Source of the DNA: Sternotherus odoratus | Lineage: Eukaryota > Chordata > Testudines > Kinosternidae | NCBI GenBank assembly: GCA_032164245.1 | Contig: JAVMKO010000001.1 | Location: 293,061,041-293,125,040, forward strand | Length of the DNA stretch: 64,000 bases | Direction: 5' to 3' | In this document: positions 8,591 through 60,225 of the stretch, one piece after another | How the letters are laid out: each line of letters opens with the position of its first letter | How positions within the stretch are numbered: position 1 is the first letter of the stretch | Made by a program: the position numbers and the translations under genes | The notes under the pieces: model-generated | Seen by the model: the letters and a program-made list of their open reading frames with translations, nothing else | Told to the model about the DNA's origin: nothing | The model's database searches: none

Positions 8591-8942
8591 TAACCCACCT
8601 AGGGCGGGTCCGTCTACACCTCCTCCTTAGAGGTATTAGGTCGACTTTACAATGCCGGGGTGTCTACACTACCGAACCCTTTCCGACCCAAAGGGATTTT
8701 CAGATCCGCGCCTGTACTCCACCTGGAGGGGAGGAGTAGCGCCAGACTCGACCTCCGCGGGTCCACTTAGGTGTAATTCGAGGGCTTGGCCTCAGGGATT
8801 GGCCCAGAGCGCTCCAATGGGACCGCTCTGGACAGCACTTTCAACTCCACTGCTCTTGGCCAGGTAGACAGGAGAAGCCCGGGAACTTCTGGATTTCATT
8901 TCCGGTTTGATCCGCGTGGAGAGCTCACCGGCACCGCTGACC

Positions 8943-11532
8943 ATGCCTGGCCAGGGACGCAAACGTGCTCCAGCGTTTAGCACCCAGGAGACTCTGGATC
9001 TGATCGCCTTGTGGGGAGAAGAGACCGGGCGGGGGAAAGACTTCTCCGTAATCGCAGAGAGGATGTGGGGAAAAGGCTACAGCCGAGACGATCAGCAGTG
9101 CCGGGTGAAAATAAGGGCGCTCGTCGATGCCTATTGCAAGACATTGAGGGAGAAGAATCGCCCTGGGGCCGAGCCACAGACCTGCCGCTTCTATGAGCAG
9201 CTGCACGAGATTCTAACCAGGGACACCCCCCTCACCCGCCCAATATTTGTTGAGGACAGTTCCCTGGGGGGCTTCTGGCTGGAGGTCGCTGATCAGGAGG
9301 AGGAAGAGGAGGAGGAGGAGGAGAATGGGCAGCAGCACATTGTGGAGGAGGAGAAGGTGCAGCAGGCAAGCGGAGGATCCATTCTCCCGAACAACCAGGA
9401 CCTTGTCCCAACCCTGGAGCCAATCCCCTCCGAGCACCCCCTGGTGCGGGACTGTGCTGGCGGGGAAGGCACCTCTGGTGAGTGCACACTGGTAATAACA
9501 CTACAGGGGTTAAGTGGTTAATGTTTAATTGGAGGTAAATAATTGGGATACAGTGGTGGCCAGTGCAAAGGGTGCTCCCCAGAAAAGCCCATTTAGATGC
9601 CAAGAGTTTCCACACCAAAAAACGTCCCCGGGTGGAGCCCCCCACCGCCTCCCCTTTCTTGCGTGCTTACCATGCCTGCCTGCAAACCGAAATCCGCTGC
9701 CTAGTGTCACGGAGTGCCTGGGCGATGGTCTGGAACCGCTCCCTAGGAAGACAGACAGGACTTTGGGTGGAGGGCCTCTTCTCCGTATGCAGCCTGTTTC
9801 CAAGGCTAGGAGCTTCACGGGTCCCCACTTCCACCTTCCTGGGTCTGTCCTTGGAGCATTCAGCACCTTCTGCCCCTCCGTGTGCTTCCCCCAGCAAGCC
9901 CACCTGGGCGGGGTCCTGAGGGAGCCCATGGATTCTGCACCCCAAATCCACAGTCAAACGTGACTCTCAGTCAGCCAGTAAAACAGGTTTATTCAATGAC
10001 TGGTCTAACTCAGACCATACAGCGAGCGTGAGCCCTCAGCTGGATCCATTTTGGGGGCCAGAGAGCGAGATAGCTCCTCTGCCTCCCTGCCTGGCTCCAG
10101 CTACCTTCAAACTCCAAATCCCCAACTTCCTCCCTTCCAGCCTCTCCTCCCTGCATTCCTGTGTGTTTTCTTTCCCGGGCAGGAGGTATCGCCTGACCCC
10201 TCTCCAACAGGTTCAGCTGACCTCTTTGGGTATGGTTAGACTGGCGCTTTGCAGCGCTAAAACCCTCCAGTAGCGCTATAATTATCGTACCCTACCCACT
10301 TCAAAGTGACATTTTGCGCATTTACTCACTGTTTAAAGCGCTAGTATTAAACCTCCTTTTCCAGAGGCAGAAGGCTTTTAGCACTAGCGCTGTAGCGCAA
10401 GGGTGCGAATGTGCACACCCATTGCCTATTAATGAGCCTCTAGCCTCCTGCATCCTGGCCCAGAATTCCCATTAGAGCCTCTCTGGCCAGCATTTAAAAC
10501 TCTTCTGTCGCGTCCTCAGGTGACCACACGTCAGACCCTCCCCTACATTCCCCGGGAAATTTGAAAAACCTTTTCCTGTTTCCTACAGCCAGGGGTGGAG
10601 TGCTCAGGTAACCATTTTGCTTCAGCTATGACTCCACGTCCCATGCCCCCGCGGAATAAGCGATCTCGAGCGTGGTCTGATCATGAGGTCATGGACCTCA
10701 TCACCTGTTGGGGGGAATCGGCTGTTCAGTCCCAGTTGCGGTCTAGCCGCCGAAATTATGAAACCTATGCACCCTCTCTTGCCCCGTCACACGCAACAGA
10801 ATGAAAACCTATAAAGAATGTTGGGATAATGTTTATCAGAATGCAGTTCCCGGTATCACCCACAGCTCCCCCGAAACAGTGGTATAGAAAGGCAGGGAAA
10901 CAGTGTTTGTCCAAGAGACTCGGCATGGCCAGGGATCCCTGGTTACTTCTGTGGGTGAAATGGCTTGTTTGGACAGGGGAACTGCAAAAAAAATTCAAGG
11001 AATGCATGGGACTCCCCAAGAATGTCTGTGGCCAACAATGGGATCTTGTGTTTTAACTCTGAAATTGTTACTATTCCCAGCTCGGCCCTTGACAACCTCA
11101 CCAGCTGCATCTGTGGGTCGAAAAGTGAGTAACCTGCGAATCAAGCCGAGGAAGAGCAAAGAGGAGCTTCTGAGGCAAGTTCTGGAACAGGTTTCAATGG
11201 ACAACCAACGTAGGGAGGAGCAGATGAGCCGCTTTGAAGATTGGAGGGAACAGCAAAGGCAGGAGAGAGAGCGCGCTCGCCAGGAGCGTGCTGATAACCG
11301 CACTGACAAGGTGCTTAAAATGCTGGAGCTGCAATTACAGGCTCTGCAGCAGATGGCTGCTGTTCAGGTGCTGCAGACCCTTCAAGGCCACCCCCGCCCC
11401 CATCACTTGCCCCCCATCCATTACCCTCCTGGCTCTCTGTCCCCTCCAGGCCAGTATCAGCATCTGGCTGCTTATTACCACCCACAGTTGCCACCAACCC
11501 CCATCCCTTCACCGACCACCCCACAGATCTAG
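8943..11532 (+). CDS. Harbinger ORF1: SANT/Myb-like DNA-binding protein, two exons, open frame
   Basis: Exon 1 is 8943-9477 (donor CTCTG|GTGAGT) and exon 2 is 11081-11532 (acceptor CTATTCCCAG). The phases match (1 to 1) and give an uninterrupted 328-residue protein. Residues about 10-90 (STQETLDLIALWGEE onward) form a SANT/trihelix-like DNA-binding domain. An acidic glutamate run follows near residue 120. The C-terminal half has a charged coiled coil (KEELLRQVLEQVSMDNQRRE and an RQERERARQER segment) and ends in a Pro/His-rich tail. In Harbinger elements this protein brings the transposase to the nucleus and the DNA ends. It is adjacent to the transposase relic, which argues for a transposon gene and not a host MSANTD gene. 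The intron is loaded with later insertions yet both exons remain open. Confidence 0.7.
9705..10220. repeat. LTR-like interspersed repeat inside the ORF1 intron
   Basis: Starts TGTCACGGAGTGCCTGGGCG, a start I associate with a common turtle LTR. The right boundary is not clear and I could not find a target duplication. No coding sequence. Confidence 0.35.
10590..10830 (+). pseudogene. Fragment of another Harbinger SANT ORF1
   Basis: From an ATG near 10628 the frame reads MTPRPMPPRNKRSRAWSDHE, then VMDLITCWGESAVQSQL, and soon loses similarity and ends. This is the start of a SANT domain like that at 8943 but from a different subfamily. It is truncated. Confidence 0.6.
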
Positions 11533-11942
11533 CACCCTTACCCACTGCACCCAACCCCTACTAACAGGCAGGACCGCACTCCCCAGAATGGGTTGGGTGA
11601 GTACACCAATTCGGAGGGCAGTGGAGATTGAGTCCAGGACATACACCACTATGTAAATGTCCCCTTTCCAAACCCAAGTTCACACCCCTTGCACCCTCGA
11701 ACATATTTCACACCCTCCCCCCAAACCAGTTTCACACCCCTTCTTCCCCCACCACAAACTTTATTAGTTTTTCAACTTTTATTGCAGATTATGAGAAAGC
11801 AGTTCAATAAATGAGTTCTTTTTCATAAATGGGTTTCTGTATTCGGTGCACACATGTGCGTAATAGGTACATAAAAGCGACCGTCTTATCCGATTAACAG
11901 ACTGCTACCCCGCAACCTCCCTCCCTCCCTCTGCAATTCCCA

Positions 11943-13100
11943 TTAGAACTCGCTTTCAGCCAGAAAATGCTCCCTCAAGGCTTCCCTGATCCTTGTACCC
12001 TCGCGCTGGGCCCCTCTAATAGCCCTGCTCTCTGGCTATGCATAAGCGGCCTCCAATTGCTGAACCTCTGAGGTCCATGCCACAGTGAAGGCTTCGCCCT
12101 TCCGCTCACAGAGATTGTGTAGGGCAGTGGTCCCCAACCCCCGGGCTGCGGACCGGTACCGGTCCGTGGATCAATTGGTACCGGGCCGCAGCGGGTACTG
12201 GGCCGAGTGGCGTGGCGGGAGCGGTGAGGCGGCGGCAGCGGGTACCGGGCTGAGCGGCGTGGCAGGAGCGGTGAGGCGGTGGCAGCAGGCAGGCAGCAGG
12301 CAGGCAGCAGGGAAGGTGGCGGCAACTCCCCCCCTCGCAGCAGGCCAGGCGTGGGGCTGGATGAATGGAGCGGTGGAGCCAGCGGGCTGCGGCAGAGGGA
12401 GGGCCGGGGCCTGCACGCCGGAAGTGAGCAGCCGGGAAGAGCCCGGCGCGGTGGGGCCGGTGCTGAGTCAGACACTGCCCCCCCCCCCCCGGGCCGCAGT
12501 AAAATTGTCACCGCGTTGACCGGTCCGCGGTGATAAAAAGGTTGGGGACCACTGGTGTAGGGCACAGCATGCGGAAATAACCGCGAATATACTTCCCCCT
12601 GCCAAGTCTATCTTGCCATAAAGGCACCTCCACCTGGCTTTAAGACGCCCAAAGGCCCTTTCCACAGTCATTCGACAGCGGCTCAGCCTGTAGTTGAACC
12701 TTTCCTGGCTGCTGTCCAGGCTCCCCGTGTAGGGTTTCATGAGCCAGGGCATTAGAGGGTAAGCTGGGTCGCCAAGAATCACAATGGGCATTTCCACTTC
12801 CCCCACGGGGATCCTGTGGTCTGGGAAAAAAGTGCCTTCTTGCAGCTTCCTGAACAGGCCGCTGTTGCGGAAGATGCGTGTGTCATGCACTCTTCCCGAC
12901 CAGCCTGCATTAATGTCAGTGAACCGCCCACGGTGATCCACAAGCGCCTGAAGAACCATGGAGAAGTACCGCTTTCGGTTAATGTACTGGTCAGCTAGGT
13001 GTTCGGGGGCCAGAATAGGGATATGGGTCCCATCGATCGCCCCTCCACAGTTAGGGAAACCCATCTGCTCAAAGCCAGCCACAATGTCTGGCTGCCCATG
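11943..13100 (-). pseudogene. Harbinger (HARBI1-like) transposase, interrupted and truncated
   Basis: Catalytic-core landmarks are visible in order: GGAIDGTHI (first Asp), VILGDPAYPL (second Asp) and TVERAFGRLKARW (Glu), the DDE triad of PIF/Harbinger transposases. A 430-bp hAT MITE (12125-12554) splits the frame after SACCALH. On the far side the same frame resumes with LCERKGEAF but meets a TAG at 12038-12036, before the natural end at 11943. The N-terminal third is missing because homology stops at about 13100. It cannot encode an active enzyme. Confidence 0.8.
12125..12554. mobile_element. hAT MITE inserted in the Harbinger transposase
   Basis: Perfect inverted ends CAGTGGTCCCCAACC and GGTTGGGGACCACTG, flanked by a perfect 8-bp duplication GTGTAGGG (12117-12124 and 12555-12562). 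It is 430 bp, GC-rich inside, without a transposase. Confidence 0.9.
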
Positions 13101-13331
13101 GCAGCGGCGGGGACTGGGGGCCGGGTGGACCCGGCAGCCTGCCAGCAGCGGCGGGGACTAGGTCCGGGGTGCAGCTGGCAGCCCGGCGGGGACGGGGGGG
13201 GGGGGGTCGCGGGGACGGGGGGGGGGCTTTTTTTTAAAAAAAAAAATCTGCGGCTTTTCCGCGGAAGGGTCGCGAGGGGCCGCCAGAGCACAAAAAGGGG
13301 TCGCGGTCTCAACAAGTTTGAGAACCGCTGA
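13100..13331. repeat. hAT-type fragment (one end only)
   Basis: Ends at CAAGTTTGAGAACCGCTG, a common hAT (Charlie-like) terminus. The body is GC-rich with a G-run and a T/A-run. The opposite end is not present next to the truncated transposase. Confidence 0.5.
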
Positions 13332-19183: not shown

Positions 19184-19191
19184 GATAAATA
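19184..19191 (+). promoter_or_regulatory. TATA-like element of the beta-defensin gene
   Basis: GATAAATA lies 49 bp before the start codon of the signal-peptide exon, which would put transcription start near 19215 and give a short 5' leader. This is inferred from position only. Confidence 0.35.
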
Positions 19192-19239: not shown

Positions 19240-22200
19240 ATGAATGCCCTGGGCCTCGGGTTTCTCCTGCTTCTGGCACTGACAGGACCCATCCGTAAGT
19301 ACCCCTTCAAAAGAGACGGGTCCCCCCTCACTTTAGGCTACTCAGCCTGCTACAGTTTCTAAAGTTCCTGGCTTGTTATGGGCATGAGACAGCTGTGTGT
19401 GCATGGAAGAATCCAAAGCTAAAGGACTCCACAGAGTTATCACGCTATCACAGCCTCGGGGTCTTTGGCTAGCAGTGTCCAGGGGAGGACTCCTTTCTTT
19501 GCGAAAGCAGCTACGGAGACCAGATGCAGAAATCCGGAGGTAGACCAGTAGGCTTGGTTTGTTTTGCATGCTGCAGGAAAAACGGCTCTAGACTTTTGAG
19601 GCAGGGAGATCGTTCCACGGGGTCAAATTCTGCTCCTCTGTAAATCCACTGAAGTTCAGGGGCATTACTCGGAACTTACGCCAGTACAACTGAGAGCAGA
19701 ATAGGGCCCCTTTAGGAACAGCATCTCCTGGGAGCACCAGCAATCCCAGACCACGGTGTCAACTAAATTGGGATCTCAGCGAGAGAGAGTGACAGTTCAC
19801 ATGGTCCAGTCCAAATTCATCTCTGGGGTCACTCCATTGACTAGTGAAGTCAGACGGCGTGGGGAGATGGGACACAACACAGCTGAAAATCAGAGAGGTA
19901 GCCGTGTTAGTCTGGAATAGCAGAGGTAACAAAGAGTCCTGTGGCACCTTAAAGACTAACTATAAAGTATCAAACTATAAAGTATCGAACACAGCTGAAG
20001 TTGTCCCTGGTGTTCTCCTTTCTCCTGGCCTAAACAGTGCTTATAAATTCCCAGGGGAGCCCCCCCCCCAAGTGCTCTAATTGTAGCAGCACCCCGGGGC
20101 CTGGGGGAAAATGACAAGTCACCATTCATCCCCTGGCAAACAGCGGCAGAGAGGCCATGGGCATTGTGTGCTAATCACTGGATTGCACTGTGGTGACCCA
20201 GCATCAGCTGAGACAGAGACACACTGAGCTCGTCTACCCCCCCCCCCCCAACTGTCCACCCTGCACCTACGTTTCCCTGATGCTCATGTTTGCAACAGCA
20301 GCTTGCGGAGGAGGGGAAGGCCCCCAGTGATGCTGCTCCCAGGGAGTTCACAACTCCTGGGGATTTGAGTCTGTGTGTGTCTGTCCCGTCTATTTCTGAA
20401 CCCAAACGAGTTGGACAACTCCCCAGCCTGTGAGATCACGTCCATGGGTTTGGAACTTTCCAGCCTCTCCACTAGCTTGTCCTGCTCGCCTCAGACTTTC
20501 CAGAAAACCCAGGCGTGAGATCAACCTGTGAAATGTGGGACAGCCAGCTACCGGCCCAGGCCAGGGCCCCAGCTGCTCGAGTCAGAATCGCTGCCTTTTA
20601 AAATGTCCTCGCAGACACAAAGAAAAGGTTGAAACGGTGAGCCAAGTGTAACTGGCGCCTGCCTGAGTATGCAGGCAGCCTGAAAACAGTGGCTTCAAGA
20701 GGTGTGACCTGCCCTATTCGTCTCATTGCTGAAATCTTCTGCCACCTTCTCAAGGAGGGGTGAGGCCATGGTTTTGGCTAGGGGCCATGAGGGAGGGGCA
20801 GGCATGGGGCCACGGCAGACCCACGTGGGATGTGCCATGGATTGTTTTAATTCAGCCCTGTTTATAATGGAAGGGTGGATTCAACCTCTTTTGCTGAAAA
20901 TTGCCCTGTTCCGTTCATTCCCTCCTAAGCATCTGGCACTGGCCACTGGCGGAAGACAGGATACTGGGCTAGATGGACCTATTGGTCTGACGCAGCATGG
21001 GCATTCTTATGCTCTTATGTGGAAGCACATTACTCCAGTTTAACAGTGTAGACAGGACTTCTTGCCATCATATAGCTCCTGAAGAAGAGTGTGGATGACG
21101 CTGTGAGTGTAAGCGACGAGAAGGCATTGAGCCTTTGGTTATGGGACTGACAATTGATGGGGCTTATAGTGTGTTTTGTCAGTAGATCTCGAAGCACTTT
21201 ACAAAGGAAGTCAGGCTCATTAGTTCCATTGTGCAGATGGGGAAACTGAGGCACAGAGCACTGACATAACTTGATCAAGGTTACCCAGCAAGTGAGCAAG
21301 AGCCAGAATGAGAAACAGAGGCCTGGCCTAGGAAAGGAAGGATGATTTGGTGGTTACAGCACTAGACTGGGCTTTAGGTTACCTGGGTTTAGTTTCTAGC
21401 TCTGCCACAGATCCTCTGTGTGACCTTGGGCAAATCACTTAAACTCTCAGCTCCTCAGTGCCCCAACTGTAAAATAAGAATTAAAAAACTTCCTTCCTTC
21501 CACCCTCTGTCTGCCTTGGTTATCTAGACAGGGACTCTTAGGGTTTGTCTTCACTAAAGCGGGGAGGGATCGAACGCCAGCGGCTCCCCCGTCGACTCTG
21601 GAAGTCCAGCTTGCCAAAAGGCGCAAGCTGGAGTTGACGGGGGGAGCGCGCCGCCGACTGCTGCCGCCCTGAGGATGGCAGGTAAGTTGGCTGTAGATAC
21701 TCCTAATTCAGCTATGTTATTCACGTCGTTGAATTTGAGTATCTATAGCCGATCTCCCCCTAGTCAAGACCAGCCCTCTCTGTGTGTCTACTGGGTACAG
21801 GCTTGGCCCCGGGGCCCTGACCATGGTTGGACCTGCTAGGTTTTACTATAACACAGATAATGGGCACTGGTTGGGAATTTTGCAGTGTAATGGGCATTCA
21901 ACAGAAAATGCTGATTAGCTGAAAGAGAAATGCGTTGCAGAAAAGGGTCAGTTTCGAACAATTTTTTCACTTGAAAAAAAATTTGGAAGAACATTTGGAA
22001 ATTGTTGGAGCCTTTTCTTCTGATCTCTTCAAACTGACAAGTTCTGGGTTTCCACTGCAGAGCGACTTTTCATTTCGAGACGTGAGCTGTAGTAAAAACA
22101 AACAAAAATTAAACCAAACCAAACCGCTTGATCTTTTTCGCGATTTCAACGTTTTGCTCTGATTCAGGATGGGAGATTTTTTTCAATAGTCATAGGACAA

Positions 22201-24210
22201 GAACCCCATTTCCCACCCAGCTCTACAAATTACAGCCCAGTTCTCTAGCCACTGCACCCCTCTGTCTTAAAGCTTTAGGCTAAATCTGTTCAAGAAGCCA
22301 GCTGTCCTCAGAAAGGGGCTGAGCCAAAACCCACTGAAGTCAATGGGTGACTTTTCACTGAGCAGACCCTAAGTGCATCCCAATGACTGGACTTTAAGAG
22401 TCCCGTAATATGGCAGGTATCACCTGAGTGCCACGGTCACTCTGTGACACCCTGCCTCTATTTCTCCCGCTCTTCACTGGGAACCAAAGACCTACCTCAC
22501 TCCCTTGTTCCAGGGACCCACCATCAGACTTAGCTCCACTCCTCTGTGGTCCCTCTGTTCCCAGGCACAGCCTGCCCCTATCCCTCCTCTCCTGAGCTCT
22601 CACAGACCTTTATAACCTCAGGTGTAGCCCTGCCCCCTTTAATTGGCTCACATGGGCCCACCTGTTCTGACACAGGGGCACGGGCCCTGGTCTACTCAAC
22701 AGGACCGGGCCCCATTGGTTTGCGTGTCCAGCTGCAGGCCAGAAGGGCAGCGTGTTGTCTTAAGAATTCACCCCCCATCCCGTGGGGTTCCCAGGCACCG
22801 CAACATGGACACAGGTTCTGGGCCCTCCGGCGTGTTTCCTTTAGCTGCTGCTTTCTCCCTGCCCAGGTGCCCAGCTAGTCGCTCCCATGACCACCTTGAC
22901 CTGTGCAAACCGGAGAGGGTACTGCCGCCACTTCTGCCTTTCCCACGAGGTACATGTAGGCCACTATGGTTGCCCCCGGCGATACAGGTAAGAAGGGGCT
23001 GTGTTGCTGCAACCCCCTGCTGTGTGAGGAGGAGGAAACACACCAGTTGGAGATGGGAGGGAAGGGGTGAATGGTGTTTCACTGCCTGTGCCGGGGGCAC
23101 TATTGGCCCAATGGCCTCGGAGAGTACGTCTTATGGCCACTATCTTGGCTGGCACACCGGGGATTGAACCAGGTACCTCCACAAGAAAAAGCAGGAAATG
23201 CTCCCGCTTGAGCTAGAGTCAGCCCTGCCGTAGCTGCTGGCTGTAAGAGGTTCATACCCTCTGCAGATCAGCAGCCAGGGAGTGTCACCGTTTCAGGGTA
23301 ACTACGCAATTACAAGGTATTCCCCCATCTCTGGTCCACTCCAGGAGGGCCAAGTGAGACCTCCAGCCATCACCTGTCTCTGGGCAGGGCCCCTCCTGAC
23401 TGTGGGGTTTAAGGCTGCACATCCCACTGCCCTACTCTGTGATACTCCCAGCAAACCCATCTGCCTCAAGGTCAACGTCTGGGCTGTACCGTCTCTCCAA
23501 GCTACGGCCCCTATTTGCCAGTAGTTACAAGTTACCACCCTGCTCTTTCTAAGCAGAGTACATTTATTCTTCAGGTAAAAGCATCCCAGAGGAAACATAA
23601 AAAACAATCCATTCCTACATGCCTACTGAACATGCTAGAAGTCACTCAGCAATCTTATGGGGCCCTGTAGACCACAGTCTTCCCAACCTTTCAGCAAGGG
23701 TTAGGAGTCAGTTCCTGGAGGCCCAAAGATCCTGTGCATTTGCTAAATCCAAAGGAAGGCCCCTGAGTCTGTTTAAACCCAGCCCTTCATACCCAAAGAT
23801 TTGCTTTGTCTCCCAGCCTCCTGCGAATGGGTGAAACCAGGCCCTCTCCTTGTCCCCTAGAGGCGGTCACGCTTCAAAGCCAGCATGGGAGTTGCATTAC
23901 TTGCCCCAGACGGATTCCAGGAACACACAATACAGCTCATCTGCACTGGCACAAAGGGCCACGAATATTTTACGGATGGCCCAGCTCAATCGAATGGCTT
24001 TTTGAGGTTTTTATGCTCTGTGTTAAAAACAAAATGGCCCCCAAAGCTACTGCAGGGGGTTGCCAGAGCCGTCACTAGGGGAAAACATAATCACCAGTGA
24101 CCTACATAGGCAAGGCCTGTTCTTTTATTTCCAGGTGCTGTGTGCCAAAGATCTACCTTGTGGAATGGACCAAGCCCAGACGTGCCAGACCCATATCAAC
24201 TCCCCCCTAG
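19240..24210 (+). CDS. Beta-defensin, three coding exons
   Basis: Exons: 19240-19294 (donor ATCC|GTAAGT, phase 1), 22867-22987 (acceptor CCCTGCCCAG, donor ATACAG|GTAAGA, phase 2) and 24135-24210 (acceptor TTTATTTCCAG, stop TAG). The phases join without error to an 83-residue precursor. Exon 1 is a signal peptide (MNALGLGFLLLLALTGPI). Exon 2 holds four cysteines and exon 3 starts with the CC pair. The spacing C-x6-C-x3-C-x11-C-x5-CC (Cys31, 38, 42, 54, 60, 61) is within the beta-defensin range, and GHYGC matches the usual Gly before Cys4. A basic, proline-rich tail (TKPRRARPIS) follows. Beta-defensins are secreted cationic antimicrobial peptides with three disulfides. A donor-like GTGAGT directly follows the stop, suggesting a 3' untranslated exon. 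I cannot assign an orthologue. Confidence 0.85.
19878..19966 (-). repeat. Interspersed repeat family R, copy 1 of 3
   Basis: GAGGTAGCCGTGTTAGTCTG and CTGTGGCACCTTAAAGACTA are the reverse complement of sequence also found at 44670-44825 and 62645-62805. It is abundant in reptile genomes to my recollection, but I will not name the family. Confidence 0.7.
20900..21020 (+). repeat. CR1-type 3' tail
   Basis: GGGCTAGATGGACCTATTGG, then CTGACGCAGCATGGGCATTC and TTATGCTCTTATG, the same tail subfamily as at 14770-14856. Confidence 0.7.
21170..21485. repeat. Two MIR-like CORE-SINEs in opposite orientation
   Basis: 21180-21300 reads GGGGAAACTGAGGCACAGAG (minus-strand MIR). 21335-21480 contains GTGTGACCTTGGGCAAATCA (plus-strand MIR). 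Both are old and diverged. Confidence 0.65.
21537..21778. repeat. Harbinger-type MITE
   Basis: Left end TTAGGGTTTGTCTTCACTAA and a right end containing CTAGTCAAGACCAGCCCT are imperfect inverted repeats. The interior has a small palindrome around 21610-21640. No coding. Confidence 0.55.
22430..22860. repeat. Probable LTR-like repeat just upstream of defensin exon 2
   Basis: CACTCTGTGACACCCTGCCTC and following CT-rich sequence resemble turtle LTRs, but I could not define both ends. It stops within a few bases of the splice acceptor at 22866. Confidence 0.3.
23080..23228 (-). repeat. tRNA-derived SINE
   Basis: On the minus strand an A-box-like TAGCTCAAGCGGGAGCA and a B-box GGTTCAATCCC are about 40 bases apart, the arrangement of a polymerase III promoter. 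The region does not fold into a full tRNA, so it is a SINE and not a tRNA gene. It lies in intron 2 of the defensin. Confidence 0.65.
23285..24110. repeat. LTR-like repeat in defensin intron 2
   Basis: Begins TGTCACCGTTTCAGGGTAAC and contains long CT-rich tracts typical of an LTR. The right end lies just before the acceptor of exon 3. No target duplication was identified. Confidence 0.3.
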
Positions 24211-24316
24211 GTGAGTATCATCTTTCCCCCTTATTCTCTGGTTTGGCTGGTGCCTCAGCCTTCTAGCAAGTGACATTTGATGCTGTAGCTGGGCTATTTT
24301 GAGTCTCAATCAGTCG

Positions 24317-24640
24317 ATTCAGGCCTGATCCAACTCCCATTCAATCCAATTCAGGCCTGATCCAACTCCCATTCAACCCGATTCAGGCCTGATCCAACTC
24401 CCATTCAACCCGATTCAGGCCTGATCCAACTCCCATTCAACCCGATTCAGGCCTGATCCAACTCCCATTCAACCCGATTCAGGCCTGATCCAACTCCCAT
24501 TCAATCCAATTCAGGCCTGATCCAACTCCCATTCAACCCGATTCAGGCCTGATCCAACTCCCATTCAACCCGATTCAGGCCTGATCCAACTCCCATTCAA
24601 CCTGATTCAGGCCTGATCCAACTCCCACTCAACCCATTGA
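24317..24640. repeat. 32-bp minisatellite, 10 units
   Basis: The unit ATTCAGGCCTGATCCAACTC plus CCATTCAACCCG repeats ten times with only a few base changes. Immediately after it, GACCTGAATGGGAGTTGGAT (24639-24658) is the reverse complement of part of the unit, making an inverted cap. The array begins about 105 bp after the defensin stop codon. Confidence 0.9.
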
Positions 24641-31307: not shown

Positions 31308-33915
31308 CTAGTTGGATTTTAGCTTTGGTTCGGGCTCCTGCTCGGAGGAGCAGCGGGAGCCTCTGTCCTTCCGGAGATCCTCAAAGCAGAAGAGCTGGAA
31401 GGCGATCTCCTCACAGGCGTCATTCACCCCGCACTCAAACAGGCAGCCAAACAAGAGCGGCGCTGGCGCCTCCTGGCACACGGCCAGGTCCGAGTAACCA
31501 CACGGCCCTTTGTAGAGGAGCCAGGGCTGTTCCCAGTCGGCCTCCTTCAATGGGGAGCGGTTGAGGTAAATGCCCAGGTCGACCCGCTTGTGTTTACCCG
31601 TCGGGTGGGAGTAAAGCAGCCACGACACGGTGCTTCTGGGGATGGCGGAGGGGGCGTTCCCGCTGTTCAACAGGCAGGTCGTTTCCTGGGCTGGGCCGTC
31701 CGCCTCTTCTGCGCCATCTTCCTCCAGAAGCCCCGTTGTCGGTGTGAAGCTCACCACGCTGCCCTGGCAGCCGTGAGGCGGCTCGCACAGCTTCTGACAG
31801 GAGGAGAGGCTCTCAAATGTCAGCCCCTGGTCTGTGCTGAGCGCCGCTGCCCGGCACCTGCAGGGGGTGCGGGCATTGCAGTACAGCACGGGGTCACAGG
31901 CCTGGGACGCCACCTCGGCCACCTGGCACTCCCCCATCTGCAAACCCTCAATCAGCTCGCCCTTGTGCCAGCTTTGCCCGCCGTCGTCACTATAAAAGAC
32001 CAAGGACCGGGGCAGGGTCCAGCAGGGCAGCGGCAGGCAGCAGCAGCGAGCGGTAATGTGGTAGGTGTAAGCCGGGATCACCAGCCGCCCGGAGCGGAGC
32101 TGCACCCCGTGCCCCGGCCCCACCGCAAACGTGGCCCAGTCCTTCAAGTCTTCCCCAATCACCTGCTCCGTCAGGTCCTTTAACGAGCTCCAAGTCCGGC
32201 CGCTGTCTCCGCTGTGGACGTAGCACAGCCGGGCGGCGTTCTTCCCGGTGCGGATCTGTCTTAGCTCTGTGACGTGCTTCCTCACGCAGATGAAGAACAG
32301 GAAGACAGTCCGACTCTTCCGCTCGTACACCGGACAGGGGTTCATTGTGCGGTAACCCGGTAACACTGCACAGGTCAATGGCTCACTGGGCCCCCACTGC
32401 AGCGGGAGAGAGGGGGAGAGAACAGGTAGGTCAGAGGGGTAAGGGAGCGGGGCCCACTCCTCAGTACAACACGATGACCATCCCGTACTGCTGCCTCAGG
32501 CCTGGATGGGACATGGAGCTCACACTTCTCCCCACCACCAGGGGGAGCTGTTGGGCCCTCAGCCCGGAGTCCCCTGTCCCAGCCTGGAGTCCCTTTCCGA
32601 CCCAAACCGTCCTGGAGCCCGCACCCCCAACACTCTGCCTCAAGCCCCCTCCTTCTCCCCAAACACCTCATTCCCGTCCCCACAGCCTACGCCCCCCAGC
32701 TGGAGTCCGAACCCTCCTCCGAATCCCAATCCTCTGCACCAGCCCGGAGCTCTCTTCTGCACCCTCAGCCCCTCATTTCTGGCTCCACCCAGAGCCCGCA
32801 CCTCCAGTCCATAGCTCATACCCCACCCCCAACACCTGCCCCAGCCTGGAACCCTCTCCTGCACCCCAAACCCCTCATCCCTGCTGGAGAGAGTAAAGAA
32901 GGCTCCCCCCCCCCCCCCGCCCTGGGAGGAAACAGCTTCCAGCACTTGAGAGACCAGCTGGGAGGGGAACAAAGTGCACAACTGAGGATCCTCCACCTGG
33001 AACCCCTTGTCCCAGCCCAAGACATGGTGGGGTCCTTGGCAGAGACAAACTGATTGTTGGTGTGTGTGTGTAGGGGGGGCTGGGGGGGGTGTCCTGCACT
33101 TATGGGTGGGCACAGGCAGTTGGTGCTTAATAAATCATTCGTAATCCTCTAGGCAAATGCAGAGAGAGAGAGAAAAGGCTCCTCTAGCCGCTGGGGCTTC
33201 CAGGAATAAAATGGGTCCAGGAGCCCCCTGGTGTATTGTTAAAAGCTGACAATGGGCCGGGGCCTGTGCAGGACACATCCAGATATGAAACGTCTCTGCC
33301 CCAAGGAGCTTATAAACTAGACACAGGGGCAAAGATACAGCAGGGGATTCTGAGAAGGGAGTGAACAGATGGCGGTGGACAGGGGAGGAGAGTTGATTGG
33401 GGCTTGTGGACATCCCCCTCCCTGTCCTATTCCTCAGGGGTGCGATCCTGCAAGGTGCTGAACAACCTCGACTCCCTCTGGATTTCAAAAGGCAGGTAAC
33501 CCCCCCCTCCGGCACCTCATTGGGGCGCTCTGCCCCTCACAGGATCTAGCCCTGCGCCAGTATCATTAGCTACTGCGGAGTGTGAATAGTCAGGAGTGCA
33601 GATATCCAGGGAGAGGCAGGACCCCGGGAAGCGCTAATGCTGAGACACCTCGGGCTGAGAGCGGGCAGCAAGCGAGGGGGATCTGCAGGGCAGCAACACA
33701 CAAGGAATTACCTCCACCGAAGACCCCGTCTTCCGCCCTCGTCTCAGCACCAGGCACTCAGCGTCCTCATCCCTGGCAGAGGAGCGCTTCTCCGCGAACG
33801 CCAGGAGCGTGTCTGGGGGGATACACAGCAGTGCGGGGATCCGATAGGTGACCCCACTGTGCGGATCCTGGTGGAACAGAGTCACCTTCCCAGAGCTCCT
33901 CGAAGCCTCGATCAT
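31308..33915 (-). CDS. NEU3: Sialidase-3 (ganglioside sialidase), tandem copy 1
   Basis: Coding exons 33712-33915 and 31308-32396 (minus) join in phase 0 across a 1315-bp intron (donor GTGGAG|GTAATT, acceptor CCGCTGCAG) to give 430 aa; human NEU3 is 428. NEU3 removes terminal sialic acid from gangliosides at the plasma membrane. Seen in order: YRIP with Arg25, EKR (Arg44), DED (Asp49), RTMNPCP (Asn87), three Asp boxes (130-137, 204-211, 255-262), Glu224, NART (Arg244), RVDLG (Arg339) and CGYSD (Tyr369, nucleophile). The C-terminus KLKSN resembles human FKSN. The start MIEASR lies at the same distance from YRIP as in human NEU3. No active-site residue is lost. Private changes include Tyr for His just before RTMN and Lys for Glu before GPCGYS. 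It has the only uninterrupted CpG-rich upstream region of the three copies. Confidence 0.92.
32530..33440. repeat. C-rich insertion in NEU3 intron, shared by copies 1 and 2 only
   Basis: Repeated CCCCTCATTTCTGG / CTGCACCCTCAGCC-type motifs. It corresponds to 39610-40530 in copy 2. Copy 3 has unrelated sequence here (59240-59640). It marks copies 1 and 2 as the closest pair. Confidence 0.65.
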
Positions 33916-33942
33916 GATGTCTGGACGTACCAGTAACCCCAG
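33712..33942 (-). other. NEU3: NEU3 copy 1: first coding exon with 5' leader
   Basis: The exon starts after an acceptor TTTTCTCTCCCAG (ends at 33943), carries 27 nt of leader, then ATG at 33915. The in-frame codons upstream of the ATG read LGLLVRPDI and connect to no upstream start, so the ATG at 33915 is preferred. Confidence 0.6.
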
Positions 33943-34340
33943 CTGGGAGAGAAAAGGGATCAAGGGGGTTAAAATAATACTAGCTACGGAGCTTCTCTCA
34001 GCCACAGAGCTGCACCCACCTGCTCAGACAGGAAACACACTGGGCTCCTTTATTCTCATCTCTGCCATAGACTCACTGCATCAGACAACCGGCTCGTGCC
34101 CCAACGCTGCAAGAGGCTCAGATCTGTGATTTCAATGAGAGCAGGATCCAGCCCTGACCAGTGGGGGTTGGGACACTGAGTTAGGGCCAAATTCTGTTCA
34201 ATTAAGCCAGAGTCATTTCTGGCACTGGGTTTACACCAGCGTCACAAAGATCAGAACCCCCCCGCCCCCCTCCAAGTGACAAACAGGGGCCTTCCTCCAA
34301 GCCCGGATTTTCCCAGCACTAGCCCAGGGCAGTAATTTAC

Positions 34341-38386: not shown

Positions 38387-41000
38387 CTAGTTGGATTTTA
38401 GCTTTGGTTCGGGATGCTGCTCCGAGGACCAGCGGGAGCCTCTGTCCTTCCGGAGATCCTCAAAGCAGAAGAGCTGGAAGGCGATCTCCTCACAGGCGTC
38501 ATTCACCCCGCACTCAAACAGGCAGCCAAACAAGAGCGGCGCTGGCGCCTCCTGGCACACGGCCAGGTCCGAGTAACCACACGGCCCTTCGTAGAGGAGC
38601 CAGGGCTGTTCCCAGTCGGCCTCCTTCAATGGGGAGCGGTTGAGGTAAATGCCCAGGTCGACCCGCTTGTGTTTACCCGTCGGGTGGGAGTAAAGCAGCC
38701 ACGACACGGTGCTTCTGGGGATGGCGGAGGGGGCGTTCCCGCTGTTCAACAGGCAGGTCATTTCCTGGGCTGGGCTGTCTGCCTCTTCTGCGCCATCTTC
38801 CTCCAGAAGCCCCGTTGTCGGTGTGAAGCTCACCACGCTGCCCTGGCAGCCGTGAGGCGGCTCGCACAGCTTCTGACAGGAGGAGAGGCTCTCAAATGTC
38901 AGCCCCTGGTCTGTGCTGAGCGCCGCTGACCGGCACCGGTGCCAGCACCACCCCGGGGTGCGGGCATTGCAGTACAGCACAGGGTCACAGGCCTGGGACG
39001 CCACCTCGGCCACCTGGCACTCCCCCGTCTGCAAGCCCTCAATCAGCTCGCCCTTGTGCCAGCTTTGCCCACCGTCGTCACTATAAAAGACCAAGGACCG
39101 GGGCAGGGTCCAGCAGGGCAGCGGCAGGCAGCAGCAGCGAGCGGTAATGTGGTAGGTGTAAGCCGGGATCACCAGCCGCCCGGAGCGGAGCTGCACCCCG
39201 TGCCCCGGCCCCACCGCAAACGTGGCCCAGTCCTTCAAGTCTTCCCCAATCACCTGCTCCGTCAGGTCCTTTAACGAGCTCCAAGTCCGGCCGCTGTCTC
39301 CGCTGTGGACGTAGCACAGCCGGGCGGCGTTCTTCCCGGTGCGGATCTGTCTTAGCTCTGTGACGTGCTTCCTCACGCAGATGAAGAACAGGAAGACAGT
39401 CCGACTCTTCCGCTCGTACACCGGACAGGGGTTCATTGTGCGGTGACCCCGTAACTCTGCACTCGTCAAGGGCTCACTGGGCCCCCACTGCAGCGGGAGA
39501 GAGGGGGAGAGAACAGGTAGGTCAGAGGGGTAAGGGAGCGGGGCCCACTCCTCAGTACAACACGATGACCATCCCGTACTGCTGCCTCAGGCCTGGATGG
39601 GACATGGAGCTCACACTTCTCCCCACCACCAGGGGGAGCTGTTGGGCCCTCAGCCCGGAGTCCCCTGTCCCAGCCTGGAGTCCCCTTTCCGACCCAAACC
39701 GTCCTGGAGCCCACACCCCCAACACTCTGCCTCAAGCCCCCTCCTCCCCAAACACCTCATCCCCGTCCTAACAGCCTACACCCCCCAGCTGGAGTCCGAA
39801 CCCTCCTCCGAATCCCAATCCTCTGCACCAGCCCGGAGCTCTCTTCTGCACCCTCAGCCCCTCATTTCTGGCTCCACCCAGAGCCCGCACCTCCAGTCCA
39901 TAGCTCATACCCCACCCCCAACACCTGCCCCAGCCTGGAACCCTCTCCTGCACCCCAAACCCCTCATCCCTGGCTGGAGTGAGTAAAGAAGGCTCCCCCC
40001 GTGCCCTGGGAGGAAACAGCTTCCAGCACTCGAGAGACCAGCTGGGAGGGGAACAAAATACACAACTGAGGATCCTCCACCTGGAACCCCTTGCCCCATC
40101 CCAAGACATGGTGGGGTCCTTGGCAGAGACAAACTGATTGTTGGTGTGTGTGTGTGTTGGTGTGGGTGGGGGGTGCCCTGCACTTATGGGTGGGCACAGG
40201 CAGTTGGTGCTTAATAAATCATTTGTAATCCTCTAGGCAAATGCAGAGAGAGAGAGAAAAGGCTCCTCTAGCCGCTGGGGCTTCCAGGAATAAAATGGGT
40301 TCAGGAGCCCCCTGGTGTATTGTTAAAAGCTGACAATGGGCCGGGGCCTGTGCAGGACACATCCAGATATGAAACGTCTCTGCCCCAAGGAGCTTATAAA
40401 CTAGACACAGGGGCAAAGATACAGCAGGGGATTCTGAGAAGGGAGTGAACAGATGGATGGTGGACAGGGGAGGAGAGTTGATTGGGGCTAGTGGACATCC
40501 CCCTCCCTGTCCTATTCCTCAGGGGTGCGATCCTGCAAGGTGCTGAACAACCTCAAGACCCTCTGGATTTCAAAAGGCAGGTAACCCCCCCCCCCGGCAC
40601 CTCATTGGGGCGCTCTGCCCCTCACAGGATCTAGCCCTGCGCCAGTATCATTAGCTACTGCAGAGTGTGAATAGTCAGGAGTGCAGATATCCAGGGAGAG
40701 GCAGGACCCCGGGAAGCGCTAATGCTGAGACACCTCGGGCTGAGAGCGGGCAGCAAGCGAGGGGGATCTGCAGGGCAGCAACGCACAAGGAATTACCTCC
40801 ACCGAAGACCCCGTCTTCCGCCCTCGTCTCAGCACCAGGTACTCAGCGTCCTCATCCCTGGCAGAGGAGCGCTTCTCCGCGAACGCCAGGAGCGTGTCTG
40901 GGGGGATACACAGCAGTGCGGGGATCCGATAGGTGACCCCACTGTGCGGATCCTGGTGGAAGAGTGTCACCTTCCCAGAGCTCCTCGAAGCCTCGATCAT
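38387..41000 (-). CDS. NEU3: Sialidase-3, tandem copy 2
   Basis: Coding exons 40797-41000 and 38387-39487 (minus), phase 0, intron 1309 bp, 434 aa. It keeps the landmark residues of copy 1 (Arg25, Asp49, Asn87, Glu224, Arg244, nucleophile Tyr shifted by four). A 12-bp insertion changes NARTPCRCR to NARTPGWCWHRCR, adding four residues including two Trp next to the arginine that binds the sialic-acid pocket. Pro becomes Arg two residues before the His of HRTMN. The 5' side is compromised: the acceptor in front of the first coding exon reads CTCTCCCGG instead of CTCTCCCAG, and a MITE lies in the promoter region (42412-42533). The protein frame is intact, but expression is doubtful or rerouted. 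Confidence 0.9.
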
Positions 41001-41135
41001 GATGTTTCTGGTACGTCCAGACCTCAGCCGGGAGAGAAAAGGGATCAAGGGGGTTAAAATAATACTAGCTACGGAGCTTCTCTCAGCCACAGAGCTGCAC
41101 CCACCTGCTCAGACAGGAAACACACTGGGCTCCTC

Positions 41136-57988: not shown

Positions 57989-60225
<2,237 letters not shown>

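Follow-up and report, generated by a model that had tools for sequence, protein, structure and literature searches.

The window analyzed here, a 64,000-nucleotide stretch of the genome of the turtle Sternotherus odoratus (C1:293061041-293125040, where C1 is contig JAVMKO010000001.1), carries on its plus strand a small three-exon gene that, as read from its sequence, is a real and intact beta-defensin gene. Exon 1 (19240..19294) contains the ATG and the signal peptide in 55 coding bases, ends in phase 1 and is followed by the donor GTAAGT. Exon 2 (22867..22987), whose acceptor is preceded by a pyrimidine tract, is 121 bases long, encodes the end of the signal peptide, a propiece, Cys1-Cys4 and the residues CPRRYR, and ends in phase 2 at the donor GTAAGA. 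Exon 3 (24135..24210) contributes 76 coding bases with Cys5-Cys6, a basic 22-residue tail and the stop codon TAG at 24208-24210. Each of the four splice sites follows the canonical GT/AG rule, the introns measure 3.6 kb and 1.1 kb, and the three exons splice in phase to give an 83-residue precursor with cysteines at 31, 38, 42, 54, 60 and 61 (C-x6-C-x3-C-x11-C-x5-CC) and 22 residues past Cys6. Splicing and translation confirmed the exons and in-phase joining of the original prediction at every coordinate, together with the cysteine spacing and tail length that it had reported. If intron 2 is left unspliced, the frame stops right after RYR. By sequence reading, a possible TATA-like box (GATAAATA, 19184..19191, plus strand) lies about 50 bases 5' of the ATG, and a GTGAGT immediately 3' of the stop (24211..24216, plus strand) may be a donor to an untranslated exon 4. 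Intron 1 contains, at 19880-19990, what we take to be a short interspersed element of a kind present in turtles, and a 32-base tandem repeat of ten copies with 96% matches occupies 24315-24635, some 100 bases 3' of exon 3.

The signal peptide, judged by eye, sits on its own exon save for its end, and ten residues separate the end of the signal region from Cys1. The mature peptide is short and, by computation, cationic, with a charge of +8.5 at pH 7.4 and +12.2 at pH 5.5, due mostly to four core histidines; the tail alone was computed at +3.5.

The window contains the four-cysteine pattern once, and 100 random sequences of 64 kb, built from the window dinucleotides, contained it 0.21 times on average, which leaves some room for a chance alignment of three open stretches, and a looser scan for four-cysteine exons returned four in total, three besides the gene, where 2.26 were expected by chance. 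Taken by itself, the four-cysteine pattern does little to establish a gene. What places the gene beyond chance is that the precursor scored above the cut-off of Pfam PF13841 (Defensin_beta_2; 23.4 bits, cut-off 22.2), that a homologue exists in the hawksbill turtle (P0001; E 2.2e-27, 81% identical in an alignment covering 51% of the query), and that the exon lengths equal those of a fish gene described below; the homologues already refute a chance origin, to which we assign practically no probability. A search of NCBIfam, which was built for prokaryotes, gave no match.

Vertebrate beta-defensins in general have the spacing C-x4..8-C-x3..5-C-x9..13-C-x4..7-CC, and the 6-3-11-5-0 spacing of the gene falls inside this range. 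It lies outside the narrower range (x8-10, x6) of PMC6716921 (this and the other PMC papers are cited from excerpts) at gaps 3 and 4, but the same paper gives five residues in gap 4 for 42 of 66 Komodo genes, and 11 residues in gap 3 are also seen in fish members. The neighbours of the gene product in the PDB are big defensins and beta-defensins, the best sequence match being oyster big defensin 1 (6qbk; E 0.001), whose C-terminal domain has the pattern CAN.RG.CR..C.SHE...CC in common with the window gene. The oyster protein has x13-x4 spacing and, according to the literature, an N-terminal hydrophobic domain, both of which the window gene lacks. We rejected a big defensin as the identity of the gene, as the product totals 83 residues with ten between the signal region and Cys1 and the N-terminal hydrophobic domain is absent. 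A bowfin relative was modelled with three strands (pLDDT 75 for the best model, 51-57 for the other four), and its best PDB match was human beta-defensin 4 (E 0.03, probability 1.00). The PF13841 score, the cysteine framework and the exon layout bear out the original call of a beta-defensin, a call that was right though incomplete.

What was missing from that call is the likeness to fish defensins. The exons of sea bass beta-defensin 1 measure 55, 121 and 25 bases (sum 201), and its disulfide cysteines stand at 31, 38, 42, 54, 60 and 61 (PMC8231796, excerpt). The window gene has the same lengths for exons 1 and 2 and the same six cysteine numbers, with 76 coding bases in exon 3, so in both genes the intron ahead of the CC interrupts the corresponding codon at an identical point. 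Teleosts have Cys1-Cys4 on exon 2 and the last two cysteines on exon 3 (PMC11541337, excerpt), and in the window gene likewise the CC stands alone on exon 3 with an intron just ahead of it. Teleost types 2 and 3 (defbl2, defbl3; Siniperca, sea bass BD2, salmon BD5) have in common with the window gene the six cysteines with x3-x11-x5-CC, the CC on exon 3 with its preceding intron, and a CPRR-Y-R motif between Cys4 and Cys5, which in the window gene reads CPRRYR. They differ in having x5 rather than x6 between Cys1 and Cys2 and a tail of about four residues after the CC (in printed proteins with a regular end) rather than 22. Teleost type 1 (sea bass and seabream defb1), in contrast, has the x6-x3-x11-x5 spacing of the window gene but lacks CPRRYR and is less similar to it (its local score is 77, that of type 2 is 123). 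The window gene, by these features of its sequence, combines the type 1 Cys1-Cys2 spacing with the CPRRYR motif of types 2/3, and is not filed here as type 2/3.

Local scores of the mature core were obtained over a panel of 68 peptides consisting of 58 Komodo defensins, six genes of the host's own defensin cluster, two fish peptides, one oyster and one human peptide. The Komodo set comprised 58 of the 66 genes of PMC6716921 (excerpt), with the long VkBD23 tail cut and with VkBD7, 34, 39 and 43 (several domains), 55, 59 and 79 (odd) and 80b (a near copy) left out. The highest score was 123, against the fish type 2 peptide, with z 8.9 over 100 shuffles in which the cysteines were held in place. 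The fish type 1 peptide and the oyster big defensin scored 77 each, human DEFB104 scored 67, and the best scores among the Komodo and host cluster defensins were 66 and 54. By automatic count, the two fish peptides were the only ones among the 68 with x3-x11-x5 spacing. Among fetched proteins the hawksbill homologue scored 198 and the best fish protein 133, while the turtle peptides TBD-1, pelovaterin and TEWP scored 30, 31 and 51. The original prediction had proposed a protein search against reptile and bird defensins as a check; in the comparison made here the nearest relatives by local score were fish types 2/3 and not the reptile defensins compared.

In a wide family search, 117 of 5815 candidate proteins passed E <= 0.01. 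Of these, 109 were named ray-finned fish, with reedfish and sturgeon at one end of the range and perch-like fish at the other, one was the hawksbill turtle and seven were unnamed. The pattern C-x5/6-C-x3-C-x11-C-x5-CC was present in 84 of the 117 (53 with x5 and 31 with x6), and CPRR[YLF][RK] in 65. With this fish-leaning profile, no birds, crocodiles, lizards, frogs or mammals appeared among the named matches. A frog defensin close to fish defensins is mentioned in the excerpt of PMC11541337.

The hawksbill protein tracks the window gene through RYR, after which exon 3 is translated in a frame shifted by one base from that of the CC, and the record ends at a point coinciding with the GTGAGT just past the stop in the window. 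Back-translated as closely as possible to the window, the hawksbill exon 3 differs from it at 4 of 78 bases, silent changes being hidden by the procedure, and in the CC frame it reads RCCVPKIYLVEWTKPRSARSISTPP-stop, with the CC, a tail of equal length and the stop all retained. The basic tail thus looks common to both turtles. That such a gene is easily missed by annotation, as had been suggested, fits the sole turtle relative found, an unnamed product with its final exon shifted from the CC frame. Four other family predictions (P0059 from Arapaima, P0064 from sturgeon, and the unnamed P0044 and P0073) also stop or stray right after the end of exon 2, suggesting that annotation slips are common at this boundary. 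These data bear on whether the gene could be a decaying relic, an ancestral fish-type gene that is now a pseudogene or barely expressed. The misread hawksbill exon and the lack of a further tetrapod among the named family matches speak for such decay; the start, splice sites, six cysteines and stop, all intact in the window, the intact features of the back-translated hawksbill exon and the frequency of slips in other species speak against it, and we regard a relic as unlikely. An additional 69-residue protein, P0117, has the x6-x3-x11 spacing of the window gene and ends at GCPRRYR, which is the exon 2 boundary; it is possibly from another tetrapod.

In order to compare the gene with the host's own defensins, the 1.76 Gb assembly (218 contigs) was searched exon by exon with PF00711. 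At least 19 matches were found, a lower bound since 150 of 211 candidates were scored, all of them on contig C3 at 7.4-8.6 Mb; the window gene did not appear in this search. Since the excerpt of PMC9138766 places the painted turtle defensin cluster near CTSB and XKR5/TRAM2, we take these matches to mark the CTSB cluster. The protein of exon 2, searched against the whole genome, gave a single match at E <= 1. Eight cluster loci were taken and six were read, L001 and L002 not being read on their own strand. Like the window gene, the host and reptile cluster defensins and TBD-1, TEWP and pelovaterin are secreted and have the beta-defensin cysteine framework. In all six readable cluster genes, however, a single exon carries the CC together with the other cysteines, and GTAAG comes right after the CC in two of them (L007 and L008), whereas in the window gene on C1 the CC has a separate exon, and the reptile cluster defensins compared lack x3-x11-x5.

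The genes surrounding the defensin were used to ask where it came from. In positions continuing the numbering of the window, SPCS2 lies at 67454-74567 on the minus strand (four pieces at 84-94% identity to a human probe) and XRRA1 at 85276-109874 on the plus strand, 61-86 kb past the defensin gene (a probe matched it in five pieces that follow the gene order, each at E <= 1e-7). Human probes for SLCO2B1, ARRB1 and POLD3 found no match in the 264 kb searched; POLD3 was found further out on the same contig (C1:293337744-293372776). On the fish side, known here from text, xrra1 is among the neighbours of seabream defb2 (PMC11541337, excerpt) and is named in a sea bass synteny figure legend, seen in excerpt, making xrra1/XRRA1 the neighbour in common. 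Since XRRA1 is found near the gene and near fish defensin loci, the most economical explanation is that the gene was inherited vertically. A horizontal transfer of fish DNA, or contamination with it, would explain why all the named relatives besides the hawksbill are ray-finned fish, but the gene sits inside a 306 Mb contig beside NEU3-like genes, SPCS2 and XRRA1, has introns of 3.6 and 1.1 kb, has a homologue in another turtle, is at most 65% identical to any fish protein listed and, in both trees described below, is placed apart from the rows of fish types 2/3, though weakly; we consider such an origin very improbable.

We consider it likely that the gene is a functional, single-copy beta-defensin of the fish kind that turtles inherited vertically and have retained at the NEU3-SPCS2-XRRA1 locus, outside the main cluster. 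Structurally it belongs to the fish lineage, and probably by descent as well, and it would be an expressed ortholog of the fish genes.

A number of results weigh against this conclusion. Two trees were made from 42 columns, which are too few, so that the place of the gene in them is not firm. In the first, which included 11 of the 58 Komodo defensins and from which 20 of 60 non-hawksbill proteins were dropped (13 without the full pattern and seven identical after trimming), the gene joined a fish type 1 row and Komodo VkBD80a on long branches. In the second, with four Komodo rows and 13 fish rows of types 2/3 kept, neither a grouping of the gene with fish types 2/3 (p-AU 0.35) nor one with the reptile cluster (p-AU 0.56) was rejected. 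The unrejected grouping with the reptile cluster and the joining of VkBD80a could be expected if a beta-defensin of the ordinary reptile kind had left the main cluster for this contig and converged on a fish-like sequence, as beta-defensins evolve fast and spread. The intron position, the exon lengths, x3-x11-x5 and CPRRYR would then all have had to arise again; x3-x11-x5 occurs by automatic count in none of the 58 Komodo and none of the six host cluster genes, and the neighbour XRRA1 is common to the fish locus; we judge this course of events decidedly unlikely. Further points against vertical inheritance of a functional fish-type gene are that eight of the ten rows of the family-search profile were fish, which favours fish among the matches; that the synteny comparison covers xrra1 and not the immediate fish flanks spag7 and mepce; that a turtle-only query gave a single candidate, the hawksbill protein; that the loss of the CC by one frame in the hawksbill record could mean decay there; that none of the fold matches of the bowfin model reached E 0.001; and that the gene is known here from genome sequence alone. 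PF13841 searched over the genome in six frames also gave no match, a result that could be foreseen for a domain interrupted by an intron and is not evidence of absence.

If the gene is a functional fish-type defensin, its precursor would be secreted by way of the signal peptide, with a predicted cut near Ala20, and disulfides 1-5, 2-4 and 3-6, as in the family, would hold a three-stranded sheet. The cationic core (CPRRYR and the four histidines), by family, and the basic, proline-rich tail would bind anionic microbial membranes, so that the peptide may kill microbes with a contribution from the tail. The crocodile peptide CpoBD13 is a histidine-rich beta-defensin like the window peptide, although the sequence match between them is weak (E 0.59). 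Its histidines bind phosphatidic acid and it is most active at acid pH (PMC9977887, excerpt). By analogy, membrane binding by the turtle peptide is probably stronger at acid pH, and a similar effect of pH on its activity may be expected.

We lean toward the view that the fish beta-defensin lineage has here its first amniote member to be described, a gene that would have stayed near XRRA1-SPCS2-NEU3 since the ancestor of bony fish and tetrapods, was retained in turtles with a conserved basic tail, and was lost or is unannotated in most other tetrapods. Among the matches listed in the open-licence literature (titles, starts of abstracts and passages), none described a defensin of fish type from a reptile or from the neighbourhood of NEU3. 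The excerpt of a review (PMC9951749) lists three turtle defensins, TBD-1, pelovaterin and TEWP, and calls turtle defensins avian-like; the window gene is a turtle defensin beyond those three. Vertebrate defensins are hard to trace as their sequences change fast, and exon lengths, cysteine positions and one neighbour in common with fish offer a fixed point for tracing them. With it one can test whether the defensin clusters of reptiles, birds and mammals derived from the window locus or stood beside it from the start. If the proposed history is true, the main cluster of reptiles and birds and the window locus are two separate ancient defensin loci. The gene also illustrates how small three-exon genes escape annotation.

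The rest of the window contains three tandem NEU3-like sialidase copies on the minus strand, each with two coding pieces. Copy 2 (38387..41108) matched Pfam BNR_2 at E 2e-30 in its piece at 38387-39586, while its piece at 40719-41108 had no Pfam match. Copy 1 (31308..34023; BNR_2 E 1.1e-29 at 31308-32495) and copy 3 (57989..60225; BNR_2 E 3.4e-30 at 57989-59128), both pieces of each found by tblastn with copy 2, have 97% and 89% protein identity to copy 2 over a 324-residue piece. Rfam and tRNA scans of the window were empty, and NF-kB-like sites numbered 58 where 70.6 were expected by chance, showing no excess and supporting no regulatory claim. At 8868-13157 there is a Myb/SANT-like open reading frame on the plus strand and a DDE_Tnp_4 open reading frame on the minus strand, a pair that we assume to be that of a Harbinger-type DNA transposon.

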